From contig CANIKO010000011.1 in the NCBI GenBank assembly GCA_947468275.1, positions 62,001-126,000 on the forward strand: 64,000 nt of DNA, read 5' to 3'. Made by a program: the position numbers and the translations under genes. The notes beneath the pieces were generated by a model. That model did no database searches, was not told where the DNA came from, and was given only the letters and a program-made list of their open reading frames with translations. Source of the stretch: Bacteroidota bacterium (GTDB lineage Bacteria > Bacteroidota > Bacteroidia > NS11-12g > UBA9320). Shown here in pieces: positions 2,642 through 8,339 of the stretch (its first letter is position 1; each line of letters opens with the position of its first letter).

Positions 2642-3881
2642 GCTACTACTTGCAATTCTCATTTCACTGCCGGGTCTCGCCCAAAACTCTGATTCAACCC
2701 AATGGAACAAATTTTCAAACCTTTTTGATAATCCTTATAAAAAATTTGAAGCCGTTGAAATTATCAGTTTTCAATCCTCAAGGACACTTTCTTCTAATAG
2801 AATTTCCAATGATTTTATTTACCCATTTATTTTGGGCAAAAATTTAGATAAAAAAACCATTGACCGCAATCTTGACAATTCAAAAAACAAACAATTCAAC
2901 AGTGAGTCTGACCAGGAATTGAGGTATATAAACCTTAAAAAAAACGCTTTTAAAAACAAGACCCTCAACTGGTATATTAAAGGCGGTGTGCACAGCCGGA
3001 CTTACGTAAATGCGAGTAATGATGCGGCACGATTAATTTTTAAAGGCAATACAGATACCACAAAATATCAGTTTAATAATAGTACCTACTCCAATTTAAA
3101 GATGAATAAATTTGGGGGAGGAATCTACCATCATGTAGATAAAACAGCCAAGCCATATAATTTAAGTTTAGGGCTTTTTATACTTCAAGCCCTTAACTAT
3201 GGAGATATAAATACTTATAAAAATAATTATTTGCACGGCAATGAAGATTCGTTTCGTGTAGGTGTTAATTATGACGCGGCTTTTGCTAATGCCAATGCGT
3301 TTTCATCCAATGGATTAGGATTGGGAGGCGAATTACTTTTTAATCAAAAATTAAGTACTGACAAAACTTGGGGATTCAGTCTTCAAAATTTAGGGTTTGC
3401 TCATTTTAAAAACACAGCCGCCACCTATTCTGCCAATGGTCAATATAAATTTGACGGGGTTTTTATTCCCGAAATTGGCCGGTTAGGTGAACCTGATTAC
3501 TTTCAAACCAAACTCGATTCTTTTACCAATCCATTAAACAATATAAAAGAACACCAATCCCAACTTATTTTAATAGCCCCCGTTTCATTTATCTATTACA
3601 CCCTTCGTTTAAGCAGCGGCTATTACCAATTTACGTTGCGGCATTCAGGCACCAAAGCTTTGCCGGTAGCGGAATTTCGCTACTTTAAATTTATCAAACC
3701 ATCCTTATTATTTGGGGTAACAGCAGGAGCCGTAGGTCAGCATTATTTAAATACTGATATCCATTGGGCTATCAATCGTCATTGGTTTTTTCAAGCCGGG
3801 GTGTATCATTTAGAAGCCCTCGCATTGCCCAAAACCTTTGGTGGATTGGGCGGAAAATATGGATTGCAGTTTGTGTTTTAG
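2625..3881 (+). CDS. Predicted outer-membrane beta-barrel protein (DUF5723-like)
   Basis: 418 residues from ATG 2625; an upstream in-frame TTG at 2619 is less likely because the signal peptide MNKAFKLLLAILISLPGLAQ begins at 2625. After cleavage at LAQ the chain alternates polar and aromatic residues and ends in FVF, the usual C-terminal aromatic of a barrel. Its arrangement (early basic region, then GGG/GLG-rich hairpins) is like DUF5723 proteins, but that family call is tentative. It overlaps the upstream lipoprotein gene by 17 bases and converges on the next gene with a 4-base overlap of stop codons, leaving no room for a separate terminator. Confidence 0.7.
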   Translation: MNKAFKLLLAILISLPGLAQNSDSTQWNKFSNLFDNPYKKFEAVEIISFQSSRTLSSNRISNDFIYPFILGKNLDKKTIDRNLDNSKNKQFNSESDQELRYINLKKNAFKNKTLNWYIKGGVHSRTYVNASNDAARLIFKGNTDTTKYQFNNSTYSNLKMNKFGGGIYHHVDKTAKPYNLSLGLFILQALNYGDINTYKNNYLHGNEDSFRVGVNYDAAFANANAFSSNGLGLGGELLFNQKLSTDKTWGFSLQNLGFAHFKNTAATYSANGQYKFDGVFIPEIGRLGEPDYFQTKLDSFTNPLNNIKEHQSQLILIAPVSFIYYTLRLSSGYYQFTLRHSGTKALPVAEFRYFKFIKPSLLFGVTAGAVGQHYLNTDIHWAINRHWFFQAGVYHLEALALPKTFGGLGGKYGLQFVF

Positions 3882-6800
3882 TGAATCACATTCACCAGTC
3901 CCTTGAAGGTGTTTTCTGAACCGTCTTTAAATTTTACTTTTATAACATAACTGTAAACTCCGTCTTCATAGGTGGGTTTCCAGGGGTTGCTGCCTTTATA
4001 AACTACTTGATCGGTTCGGGCTACTATTAGCATTTGGTAGCTTTGTATTTTCCAGCCGTAAGGTGCAAATTCATCATTCAATCCATCATCGTTGCGGCTT
4101 ACAGCGTTGGGAATATAAAAAGCATCGGATACGCCTATTCGTATGGTTTTGGTAACGGTATCGGTGCAACCAAATGTATTGCTTACCATTAATGAAGCTT
4201 GATAGGTGGCCGTATCTATTACCGGCAAACGCACCGATTGCCATGATTTATGAAACAATCTCAAATCTTTTCCAATGGCCCAGTTATACGTTTTATAAGT
4301 AGTTTCCATGGGAGTTAATTCCACCGTTCCATTATCTACCGTTGGGTTTTCGGGAATGATGGCAAAATCGGCGTTTGGTTTTTCTATCACCATAAGGCTT
4401 GCACTTGTATTAGCCGGGCAACCTATGCTGTCGGCTATTTGCAGTTGAACGATTTGCTTTCCTTTCTCGGCAAATAGTAAGGTGGTGTCTCTATTTTTTA
4501 AAGGTCTTTGATTGGAAAGCCAGATGAGTGTTGAGCTGATAGGTGAAAACGATTGGCTTTGGTTGTGAATTGTGACAGGCTGAAACTGACATACTGAATC
4601 TACCGATAGCCCTAACTTAGCTGTAGGATTGGGGAATAATTGCAGACTGTCTTTTACGGTTGTTTGGCAATAATCTGTGGTTATAACCTTTATCCATTGC
4701 TTTTTATGAATGTCGGTCAGGTTTATTGTTTTTCCAATATCAATAGCCCTATTATCTTTATACCACACATGGTTTAATGAATTTTTATACCCTCCCCTTC
4801 CAGTTATTCTTAGGGTGAGGCTGCTATCAAAACAAGCGGGCTTGTCTATTTTGGCTACAATGGATAAAGGTATTGAAAGATTGATAATTGTGGTATCTTG
4901 ATTTAACGAACATCCATCACTTAATATAGCTTTGAAACTTATTTGATTAAGAACATTTACCGAAAAAGTATCTGTTATAGCCAAAGGTTGATTTGTAATT
5001 GATAGCCATTGATATTTATAACCTGTGGCCAAACCTCCCGATGGGTTTAGTTTTAAAAATACTCGGCTGTCTTTACAAACTACAGTATCTTTTGGCAAGC
5101 CTTTAATTTTTAAAGGAGGCCTTACGGTAATGGTTTTATAGGCGGTGTCTATTTTGCCGCAACCGCTGCTATCGCTAATAATGATTCGGTATTTGGTGGT
5201 TACAATTGGTATAGCCAAGGTAGTTTTGGCGGTGCTGTCCTGCACCAAAATACCCGGGCTCCACTGCCAGCGACTACCCCCTGTGGTAGTTATTTTTAAG
5301 GTTTGCCCTTGGCATATTAGTGTGTCTTTACCCGCATTGGCGGTGTCTTTACTGTATATTAACAATCGCAAAGTATCGTATTTATAATAGCTTTGTACCA
5401 CAGGGCTAGTACTCAATATCCGTATTCTATAGCTTGGGCTGCTTTCCACATCAAATAAGGGCAGCAATCCGCGTATCAGGCCATCCGTATCACTTGTTAG
5501 CCTGCCCAACTCCCGTTCTTTGCCTGTAAAATTTCCTTCGGCATCACTTAGCTGGGCTATGAATTGATTACCTGTATTAAACGTTCCGTTTTTGGTATAT
5601 GGGATTTTGATGGTATCGCCAGCACAGTAGGGGCCGCTTTTTACATAGCCGCGGATGATTTCGATATCGTTGATTCTTGATAGCAATATATCTAAACCAT
5701 TCTTCTTTGAAATATATAATTTATTATCAATATTTATTGTATCAATAAAATTATAAGCAAGCAAGATGCCTTTCCCATTTACACCACTAATAGACTGTGA
5801 AAAACTTATTTTGTTTGTTTTATTAATCCTGCTTATCCAGATAAAATTTCCCCTGTTATCAATTTTAAAGAACCACAAAATACCGGAAGTATCGTATAGT
5901 TCAAAATTATCTATTTTTACATTTCCAAACATATACCCAGTTCCAAAATAAAAACCATCACTTATAGCAATGTCTCGTATCCCCGAACTTGTAAATTTTG
6001 AATTGGCTAGGTATTGAAATGTTTTATTCCATTTAATATTAAACTGGCTATCAATACAAATCAAGAGGGGATACTGATTTTTATTAGGAGAAACAATAAT
6101 TTTTCCATTGCATAGAAATAGTGTATCACTATAATAACTTCCAACTAAAACTATATTACTTAAATTGTCCATCGCAGATTTTTCAAAAGGTTCACTTTTT
6201 GAATATAAAATTCGCTTTACTTTTGTGAAATTTAAATTTGAATCTAATTTAAAAGCGTAAGCCGACCATCGCTTTGGCTGATTATTTAAATAATTTACTC
6301 CATTTAAATTGAAGCCTTCTAAAAAACTACCACAAGCAAAAACATTTTTATTCTTATCTAAATGAATTGAATACAATGTTCCTTGCGCATTTTTAATTGG
6401 TGCTGTTGCACCGGTTATTACCAAATTACTGGATAACTTGAAAATCAATAAATTATCATTTTTCTTTATTGAAAGATTGATGGATGAAATATAAATGGAA
6501 TCGGAATACCAATAAGTGTTGAAAGGGTTAGAACTTTTCTGATATTTAAAAGCAGCATAAATGTTTTCCTTTTCATCAATGTTTAAGCAATAAAAGGCAG
6601 AAAAAGAACTATCGCCAAGATGCAAAAGATTAAGAAAATTTCCGTTCGAATCTAATTTAAGTATAAATCCATTATCCTTCAACATTTTGCTTTCGTATTT
6701 TTTGTTTCCCAGATAAACTTTTCCCCGAAAATTGCCACATAAATATATGTTTTTATTTTTTTCGAAAACCTTAATATCCCTAATATTAAAATAACCGTTA

Positions 6801-7087
6801 CTTATAAATGAATCAGGTGTCCAAACCCACTTCGGATTTCCATCTTTATCAAGTTTGGCAACGCAAACACTCGTTAATGTTTTATTAGATATTTTGAAAT
6901 TACCGATGGACGTGGTATCCCAAAAATTCCAACCAATAATAGATTCCTCATTTTGCTGAAGGTAGCAAATTTGATTTTCTTCTGTATTACCTAATCCTAC
7001 TTGTTTGTTCCAAAGAAAATTTTGGGCATGGCAAATTTTTAAAATACCAAAAATAAAGATCACCAAAAAAAGATTAATTCTAAACAT
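3878..7087 (-). CDS. Secreted multidomain protein with T9SS type B (CHU_C, gliding motility-associated) C-terminal signal
   Basis: 1069 residues with an N-terminal signal peptide ending in CHAQ. The first ~470 residues repeat a pattern of the form KLDSNGN / FKIDNRGNF with paired W/Y positions, typical of beta-propeller or SBBP-like repeats. Residues ~480-980 hold several Ig/PKD-like modules rich in Asp, Thr and Cys. The end carries the CHU_C signal: YIPNAVSRNDDGLNDEFAPYG, then GVYSYVIKVKF and a terminal GLVNVIH. Proteins of this form are exported across the outer membrane by the T9SS, whose SprA subunit is encoded at 28.2 kb. The gene starts 21 bases after the stop of the S74-type cargo gene on the same strand, so the two may share a transcript. 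Its specific role is unknown. Confidence 0.85.
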   Translation of the reverse strand: MFRINLFLVIFIFGILKICHAQNFLWNKQVGLGNTEENQICYLQQNEESIIGWNFWDTTSIGNFKISNKTLTSVCVAKLDKDGNPKWVWTPDSFISNGYFNIRDIKVFEKNKNIYLCGNFRGKVYLGNKKYESKMLKDNGFILKLDSNGNFLNLLHLGDSSFSAFYCLNIDEKENIYAAFKYQKSSNPFNTYWYSDSIYISSINLSIKKNDNLLIFKLSSNLVITGATAPIKNAQGTLYSIHLDKNKNVFACGSFLEGFNLNGVNYLNNQPKRWSAYAFKLDSNLNFTKVKRILYSKSEPFEKSAMDNLSNIVLVGSYYSDTLFLCNGKIIVSPNKNQYPLLICIDSQFNIKWNKTFQYLANSKFTSSGIRDIAISDGFYFGTGYMFGNVKIDNFELYDTSGILWFFKIDNRGNFIWISRINKTNKISFSQSISGVNGKGILLAYNFIDTINIDNKLYISKKNGLDILLSRINDIEIIRGYVKSGPYCAGDTIKIPYTKNGTFNTGNQFIAQLSDAEGNFTGKERELGRLTSDTDGLIRGLLPLFDVESSPSYRIRILSTSPVVQSYYKYDTLRLLIYSKDTANAGKDTLICQGQTLKITTTGGSRWQWSPGILVQDSTAKTTLAIPIVTTKYRIIISDSSGCGKIDTAYKTITVRPPLKIKGLPKDTVVCKDSRVFLKLNPSGGLATGYKYQWLSITNQPLAITDTFSVNVLNQISFKAILSDGCSLNQDTTIINLSIPLSIVAKIDKPACFDSSLTLRITGRGGYKNSLNHVWYKDNRAIDIGKTINLTDIHKKQWIKVITTDYCQTTVKDSLQLFPNPTAKLGLSVDSVCQFQPVTIHNQSQSFSPISSTLIWLSNQRPLKNRDTTLLFAEKGKQIVQLQIADSIGCPANTSASLMVIEKPNADFAIIPENPTVDNGTVELTPMETTYKTYNWAIGKDLRLFHKSWQSVRLPVIDTATYQASLMVSNTFGCTDTVTKTIRIGVSDAFYIPNAVSRNDDGLNDEFAPYGWKIQSYQMLIVARTDQVVYKGSNPWKPTYEDGVYSYVIKVKFKDGSENTFKGLVNVIH

Positions 7088-7108: not shown

Positions 7109-8134
7109 TTAATCAGTAGCCGCAATAATCATAGTTTTGGTGTCTATTAGACTACTATCTACCAAAAGGCTATAATGATACGTGCCAATTGCCAAATTGC
7201 TGCAATCCAACTCTACTTGCCCAAATCCCGTTTTATTTAAAGGGAAAGCTTTTATAAGTTTACCTGTATTATCAATAACTTTTAAGAAGGCATTGGCAAT
7301 ATTATCGAGTAAATAATAATCTATAAACGTAAAACCATTAAAAGGGTTAGGGTGATTTTGAAAAAGAAGTGGTAATTGGTTTAATGTTATTTTATAAGAT
7401 GTTACCTTACTATTATCCTTAATTATATTAGAGGCAAAAACCAAATCTAATCTATATTTCAAAGAATCAATAATAGATTGTTGTTGTTGGATAGCAAGTG
7501 TTAATATTGGCACAAATTCTGTGTATTCTACACCTAGACAACTAGAATCGGTTTCGCTTCCAGCAACTATCGAATTCGGAAAAATAATTTGTAAATCCTG
7601 TGCAATAAACCCATGATGGTCAGAGCCATTAATTTCTGATTTTAGAACATATGTAAATGGTTTTAATTGCAATACAGTTGACAAGCCATATTCTAATGGC
7701 GTAATATTTTCCTTTAACCTTTTATCAGAAGTTTTATATCCACCTACATCTACCCACATTTCAGAAAATCTATCGGTGGGATTTCCAATATTAGTCGCAA
7801 GCACTGCACCTGTTGCATCAAGCATCGGCCCAATATACTGGCATCTTACTTCTCCATTGAAATAAGAATTTGTCCTTGTTATTTTGTGATATCCATCGAA
7901 TAAGTTCAATTCCTTTGCTCCCAAAGTTAAAACTTCTTTATAACTTCCATTAATATCATATGCAGCACACTTTAATATTCCTTTTTTTTGCCAATCATTA
8001 CCATTGGTCGTAATAGATTTTATTGAACTTGCGATTCCAAGAGAAAAATCTTTATCTTGTACTAAAAATGAACCGTTAGGGTAACCTGTTGCTGCATTAC
8101 CTCCCCCTATAACAACATTTTTTGTATATGTCAC
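7109..8134 (-). CDS. S74-type (endosialidase chaperone) protein with T9SS type A signal; 5' end out of frame with its promoter-proximal ATG
   Basis: The open frame holds a peptidase S74/intramolecular chaperone domain at about residues 130-225 (SDKRLKENI, then GLSTVLQLKPFTY, HHGFIAQDLQ, and a coiled QQQQSIIDSLKYRL helix) and a T9SS type A domain at ~260-341 (NHPNPFN, then GTYHYSLL). S74 domains trimerise and release from fibrous surface proteins. The first usable codon in this frame is GTG 8134, which is mid-domain: the frame stays open upstream to 8266 without an ATG. A signal-like start with its own promoter (ATG 8285) lies in another frame, separated by seven 8-bp repeats. 8285 to 8134 is 151 bases (1 mod 3), so one added repeat unit would join them. 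As sequenced, the protein is probably not exported. Confidence 0.75.
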   Translation of the reverse strand: MTYTKNVVIGGGNAATGYPNGSFLVQDKDFSLGIASSIKSITTNGNDWQKKGILKCAAYDINGSYKEVLTLGAKELNLFDGYHKITRTNSYFNGEVRCQYIGPMLDATGAVLATNIGNPTDRFSEMWVDVGGYKTSDKRLKENITPLEYGLSTVLQLKPFTYVLKSEINGSDHHGFIAQDLQIIFPNSIVAGSETDSSCLGVEYTEFVPILTLAIQQQQSIIDSLKYRLDLVFASNIIKDNSKVTSYKITLNQLPLLFQNHPNPFNGFTFIDYYLLDNIANAFLKVIDNTGKLIKAFPLNKTGFGQVELDCSNLAIGTYHYSLLVDSSLIDTKTMIIAATD

Positions 8135-8192
8135 AAATCCTTTATTATTAGTCGAAATACCATCAATAAAAAATGACTTAACACCTCCTGCC

Positions 8193-8285
8193 TTAAATTT
8201 GAACGCCTGAACGCCTGAACGCCTGAAAGCCTGAAAGCCTGAACGCCTGAACGCCTGAAACAGAAATTAGTAGATTTTTTTTCAT
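8193..8285 (-). other. Out-of-phase 5' segment of the S74 cargo gene (ATG to premature TAA)
   Basis: ATG 8285 begins MKKNLLISV, a basic-then-hydrophobic start like a secretion signal. It then reads through the octanucleotide repeat as SGVQAFRL/SGFQAFRR-type octapeptides and stops at TAA 8195-8193, 30 codons in all. The promoter at 8307-8339 sits at the right distance for this ATG. The downstream S74 frame is one base out of register. It is read here as the detached start of the S74 gene, not as an independent peptide gene. Confidence 0.6.
8201..8256. repeat. Octanucleotide tandem repeat, seven copies of GAACGCCT (two are GAAAGCCT)
   Basis: Seven perfect-length 8-bp units lie inside the 5' end of the S74 cargo gene. 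Units 4 and 5 carry the A variant. Because 8 is not a multiple of 3, the minus strand is open in all three frames across the array and always encodes the octapeptide VQAFRRSG in some rotation. Changing copy number therefore changes only the frame of what follows. Seven copies gives the off register; five or eight would be on. Confidence 0.95.
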
Positions 8286-8306
8286 AATATTTGTTATTGG
8301 GTTACA

Positions 8307-8339
8307 CAAATATAAACACTAAACTTAGCGCGATAACAA
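8307..8339 (-). promoter_or_regulatory. Promoter of the S74 cargo gene
   Basis: On the minus strand a -7 box TATATTTG (8314-8307) is preceded by TTG (8339-8337) with a 22-base spacer. The predicted start of transcription is about 15 bases before ATG 8285. This placement supports 8285 as the true start of the gene now split by the repeat. Confidence 0.5.

Follow-up and report, generated by a model that had tools for sequence, protein, structure and literature searches.

A probable relic of a slipped-strand contingency locus in a type IX secretion cargo family of uncultured Bacteroidia

Organization of the locus

The DNA analysed here (the window) is a stretch of 64,000 nucleotides from an uncultured Bacteroidota bacterium (GTDB lineage NS11-12g; UBA9320; contig CANIKO010000011.1, positions 62,001 to 126,000). 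Between positions 7109 and 8339 it contains an array of seven tandem octanucleotides, placed between a start codon and an open reading frame (ORF) for a protein with an S74 chaperone domain and a probable sorting domain of the type IX secretion system (T9SS), referred to below as the cargo gene. The promoter motif (8339-8307), the ATG (8285-8283) and the seven units proposed in an earlier note were all confirmed by direct reading, the units at 8260-8205, and frame translations bore out that the S74/T9SS frame lies one base out of register with this ATG and that one unit more or two fewer would join them. The features are as follows.

8307-8339, reverse strand: promoter-like TTG-22-TATATTTG, read directly, with a Bacteroidetes-type -7 element (TAnnTTTG); presumed active from its motif
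8193-8285, reverse strand: short ATG-initiated frame, translated as the 30-residue peptide MKKNLLISVSGVQAFRLSGFQAFRRSGVQI (ATG 8285-8283, TAA 8195-8193)
8205-8260, reverse strand: octanucleotide array, seven units of (T/G)TTCAGGC, beginning 25 nt after the ATG start
8192-8203, reverse strand: conserved TTCAAATTTAAG, FKFK in the cargo frame, found at the same position in G001, G002, G004, G006, L071 and the second copy of this genome
8193-8199, reverse strand: AATTTAA microhomology, the junction of a 936-bp in-frame deletion relative to G001
7109-8266, reverse strand: open cargo frame of 385 codons plus stop (7111-7109), taken as a remnant by comparison with full-length homologs of the same genus
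7574-7729, reverse strand: Peptidase_S74 (chaperone of endosialidase), SDKRLKENI..., PF13884, 55 bits (cut-off 22)
7136-7351, reverse strand: probable Por_Secre_tail type A sorting domain, PF18962, 25 bits (cut-off 27)

The seven full octamers are directly followed by a partial eighth unit (GTTCA, 8204-8200), and the cargo frame reads through the whole array; a gain of one unit would produce a joined frame of 394 codons. The array is thus a non-triplet tandem tract after a start codon, at the 5' end of a coding region, which is the arrangement of contingency loci. Matches to TTCAGGCNTTCAGGC with at most two mismatches numbered 8, versus 0.28 expected, and none of 100 shuffled sequences reached this count. 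With a Tandem Repeats Finder score of 106, against 64 for the next best in the window, it was also the strongest tandem array with a unit of 4-11 bp in the 1.66 Mb scanned, about half of the genome.

The cargo protein combines S74 with a probable type A sorting domain (PF13884 with PF18962/TIGR04183), the pairing found in its homologs, and residues 134-228 match the tail-fibre structure 8jov (E 3e-4). It departs from other such cargo in lacking a signal peptide and N-terminal domain, and its sorting domain falls just under the curated cut-offs (20.5 vs 23 for TIGR04183, in addition to the PF18962 score above), whereas the homologs L038 and L039 pass both models, with PF18962 scores of 31.1 and 29.7. 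Two claims of the earlier note about the start of this protein had to be abandoned. The supposedly signal-like start comprises only MKKNLLIS, without a hydrophobic core (maximum 10-residue Kyte-Doolittle value of 1.68, compared to 1.9-3.3 in the in-frame versions of relatives), and a GTG start at 8134 is an artefact of the ORF list, as the homologous protein reaches far upstream in relatives.

Homologous genes and arrays in related genomes

Searches with the cargo protein recovered same-genus homologs whose open frames were about twice as long (674-1035 codons for the full-length copies). These share one plan: a start codon, an extended n-region with FKFK at its end, the signal-peptide core, an N-terminal domain, a middle region, S74 and the sorting tail. 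The KFK/RFK residues are mostly kept as positive charge. A wider, class-wide search yielded no family members outside the genus except, within the order, G070, in which the long n-region is coding and has no array.

Octamer arrays were found directly before FKFK, at the homologous site, in five related metagenome-assembled genomes (MAGs), four of them from the same genus; these arrays have 2-11 copies and are built from four different units.

G001: GTTCAGCA, 11 units
G002: GTTCAGGC, 3 units
G004 (C69): GTTCAGGC, 2 units
G006: GTTCAGTC-like, 4 units
L071 (record CAMDQV010000199.1, counted here as a related MAG): CTCAGCCA, 7 units

A second copy in the window genome itself (C6, L067:1444-1944) has 4 units behind a TATATTTG-containing leader that is 92% identical to that of the window copy; the leader is also present in the two-unit G004 gene. 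Across species and paralogs, with one genome per species, copy numbers were therefore 2, 3, 4, 4, 7, 7 and 11. The array-less G004 C13 and G001 C30 genes and the two-unit G004 gene are in frame from the same start. In contrast, the G001, G002 and L071 genes are one unit out of frame but otherwise intact, with 707, 674 and 1019 open codons, respectively, and the gain or loss of units would restore each ORF. Their dN/dS of about 0.3 is a rough estimate, with synonymous sites near saturation. The intactness of these frame-broken genes suggests a reversible switch, as such conservation would be unlikely in genes that were permanently off.

A putative slipped-strand switch

Taken together, these comparisons lead us to lean, with some reserve, towards the array as a slipped-strand (simple sequence repeat, SSR) translational switch of a T9SS cargo family within one genus of Bacteroidia. 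The order of elements would be a promoter and ATG, 8-bp units inside the coding start, the FKFK n-region, the signal-peptide core, a fibre-like body, S74 and the T9SS tail. As 8 is not divisible by 3, gain or loss of a unit would shift the start codon into or out of register with the remainder of the gene. In frame, the product would begin with a signal peptide of unusually long n-region and could be exported; out of frame, translation would end within about 20-80 codons. We infer both that living populations undergo this slippage and that the upstream ATG is the sole start of the protein.

Two other routes into the cargo frame were considered and rejected. A programmed -1 frameshift at AAATTTA does not fit the phase, as this slippery heptamer would bring the third frame, and not that of the ATG, into the cargo frame. 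Entry from a different start codon located before the array in the cargo frame is precluded by stops that every copy has ahead of the array.

The best-documented cases of slipped-strand switching come from host-adapted pathogens. In the contingency loci of Haemophilus influenzae, tetranucleotide tracts adjoin start codons and octanucleotide tracts lie upstream of genes, with octamers reported upstream of hmw1a/hmw2a and a pyridoxine gene (PMC2651432). As in those SSR loci, a change in tract length here would put the ORF out of frame and lead to a premature stop in a gene for a surface-exposed product. Unlike in H. influenzae, the 8-bp unit lies inside the coding start and differs by species, the product is T9SS cargo of uncultured Bacteroidia, and the system is known from comparison between species. 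We found no published link of T9SS with repeat-mediated phase variation, nor of S74 with T9SS, in the open-licence papers searched.

Arrays elsewhere and the question of neutral growth

Octamer arrays of the NTCAGNNN kind occurred in 17 of 295 genomes of the class, and those examined in other Bacteroidia were mostly intergenic beside unrelated genes. They resemble the arrays described here (e.g., in G067, G144 and G323) in unit kind, TCAG core and head-to-tail order, but differ in placement, as the arrays of the present genus are confined to the S74 cargo gene, at its 5' end. The G067 genome, from the same order, is particularly rich in them, with many dispersed, degenerate and mostly intergenic TTCAGCNN arrays (e.g., L115, L123 and L135) and 50 pattern matches for octamer arrays, versus none in most relatives. 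Octamer repeats alone are therefore no evidence of a switch, and the case for one depends on the constant position that they hold in this family of genes.

The intergenic arrays would also be consistent with neutral repeat growth in a decaying family, whereby slippage builds arrays in disused genes and no adaptive switching takes place. Several family members are indeed broken: the window gene, the second copy, the G006 gene and G001 C30 by large internal deletions, and the G003 gene by a TGA in its N-terminal domain. However, no three-unit TTCAG octamer pattern was found away from this site in the seven genomes scanned for the genus, which also led us to reject a dispersed repeat family there, and three arrayed genes retain 674-1019 open codons under purifying selection. 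Furthermore, an unrelated secreted-protein gene of G001 carries an in-frame heptamer tract at the same position. We regard neutral growth as rather unlikely, though it is to be taken seriously.

This unrelated gene came from a scan of 413 kb of G001, which returned only two short-unit arrays, both between an ATG and a signal peptide: that of the S74 gene, in its off phase, and AAACTTC x6 in the gene for a 171-residue secreted protein. The latter tract (C5, L213:9326-9375) is a perfect heptamer array that immediately follows the ATG and precedes the signal peptide of a Cys-containing product, for which no Pfam family was found. From its layout, this gene is a second candidate frame switch. In G000 (C4, L268:15334-15377), the hexamer TATCAT is repeated seven times just upstream of a signal-peptide gene (MKRKLIFAGFF...) and is a possible promoter-spacing or leader tract.

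A shared off phase

The earlier note had held that a fixed copy number and a common frame break in relatives would speak against switching, and the comparison gave a divided answer: copy numbers differ, but the arrays with at least three units share their frame phase. All six of these share a single off phase, an agreement not predicted by free switching. Its chance is 0.004 if phases are random, or 0.012 when five species are counted. Three further observations also weigh against a switch. The only difference in length that can be deduced for close copies, 7 versus 4 units within this genome, amounts to 24 bp and is frame-neutral. The units of the window array are imperfect, and should slip less. 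Lastly, one array-less paralog of G001 has been put out of frame by an indel of a single base but keeps an open frame of 782 codons, which hints at an internal start.

The shared phase might reflect selection against the third phase, which in the second copy of this genome and in G004 would yield hydrophobic readthrough products, coupled re-initiation at a conserved downstream Met, or coincidence. Under re-initiation there would be no switch: the protein would start at a conserved internal Met located 10-19 nt past the TAA of the short frame, the array would be part of a translated leader, with termination of this leader coupled to re-initiation, and the observed phase would be the selected working state. 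This would account for all six longer arrays having the phase that places TAA just upstream of the internal ATG position of intact copies, for the changes in copy number that keep this phase, and for the open frame of the array-less G001 paralog. On the other hand, an internal start would forfeit the KFK charges, so that signal peptides such as MLSFMVLCTNFAKGQ would have no positive n-region; in the array-less homologs and the two-unit G004 gene, by contrast, KFK is mostly retained in frame with the upstream ATG. The internal Met is absent from the window copy, as is a signal peptide, and the six arrays are not fully independent data points. We therefore consider an internal start unlikely. 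A variant, in which the shared phase is functional because a leader peptide of variable length ends at the TAA of ATTTAAG near the internal start, and copy number tunes coupled re-initiation of the exported T9SS cargo instead of turning it on and off, seems to us still more doubtful.

Probable decay of the window copy

Although a slipped-strand switch is plausible for the family, the window gene appears from its sequence to be the remnant of a cargo gene of about 700 codons. Its leader matches that of the second copy, then jumps by 936 bp relative to G001, fusing FKFK to sequence 936 bp further on; AATTTAA is common to both donor sites of this in-frame microhomology deletion. The 312 codons lost include the signal peptide, whose core directly follows FKFK in relatives, and the N-terminal domain, and neither in-frame version of the window copy has the hydrophobic core of a Sec signal peptide. 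Relocation of the missing domain within the genome was rejected, as the sole match was the second copy, a separate truncated paralog that has kept its signal peptide but lacks the S74 part, its N-terminal domain being joined to the final strand of the sorting domain.

The gain of one unit or loss of two would restore the window frame, but owing to the deletion the product should not be exported, and because no intact copy of the lost parts was found elsewhere in the genome, unit changes would switch only a protein that should stay cytoplasmic. The frame switch of an S74-type T9SS cargo gene proposed in the earlier note therefore holds up as a design of the family, with a non-triplet array of differing copies and units at the homologous site; it fails for the window copy, which would encode no T9SS cargo even in frame. 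This copy is most likely a decaying relic in off phase that still carries the switch.

Repeat collapse in a short-read MAG could in principle have created the frame break or the deletion, and the genome is a 32-contig assembly. Nevertheless, a typical short read would span the 60-bp array, and the junction is enclosed within a 134-kb contig. Independent assemblies with other copy numbers show this phase and position too, and the second copy, which has kept its signal peptide, combines the shared leader with an array of its own. An assembly artefact is thus highly improbable.

Directly downstream of the window gene lies a 1069-codon cargo gene (window 3878-7087) whose T9SS tail is of the CHU_C type (scoring 23.4 bits, just short of the cut-off of 27), and a large secreted-protein gene similarly follows the second copy on the same strand. 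The tail of the window neighbour resembles that of the S74-family copy in G006 (C6, L045:2786-3643), which has an internal deletion and in which a CHU_C-like tail replaces the type A sorting tail, a natural swap of sorting domains.

Implications

Overall, the window copy is best seen as a probable relic of a contingency locus of the slipped-strand type, and as a broken gene it matters little in itself. If the proposed switch is correct, the range of slipped-strand switching would come to include surface proteins that uncultured Bacteroidia export by T9SS, with a tract that gates the signal peptide and a repeat unit that has been replaced between species while its position was kept.
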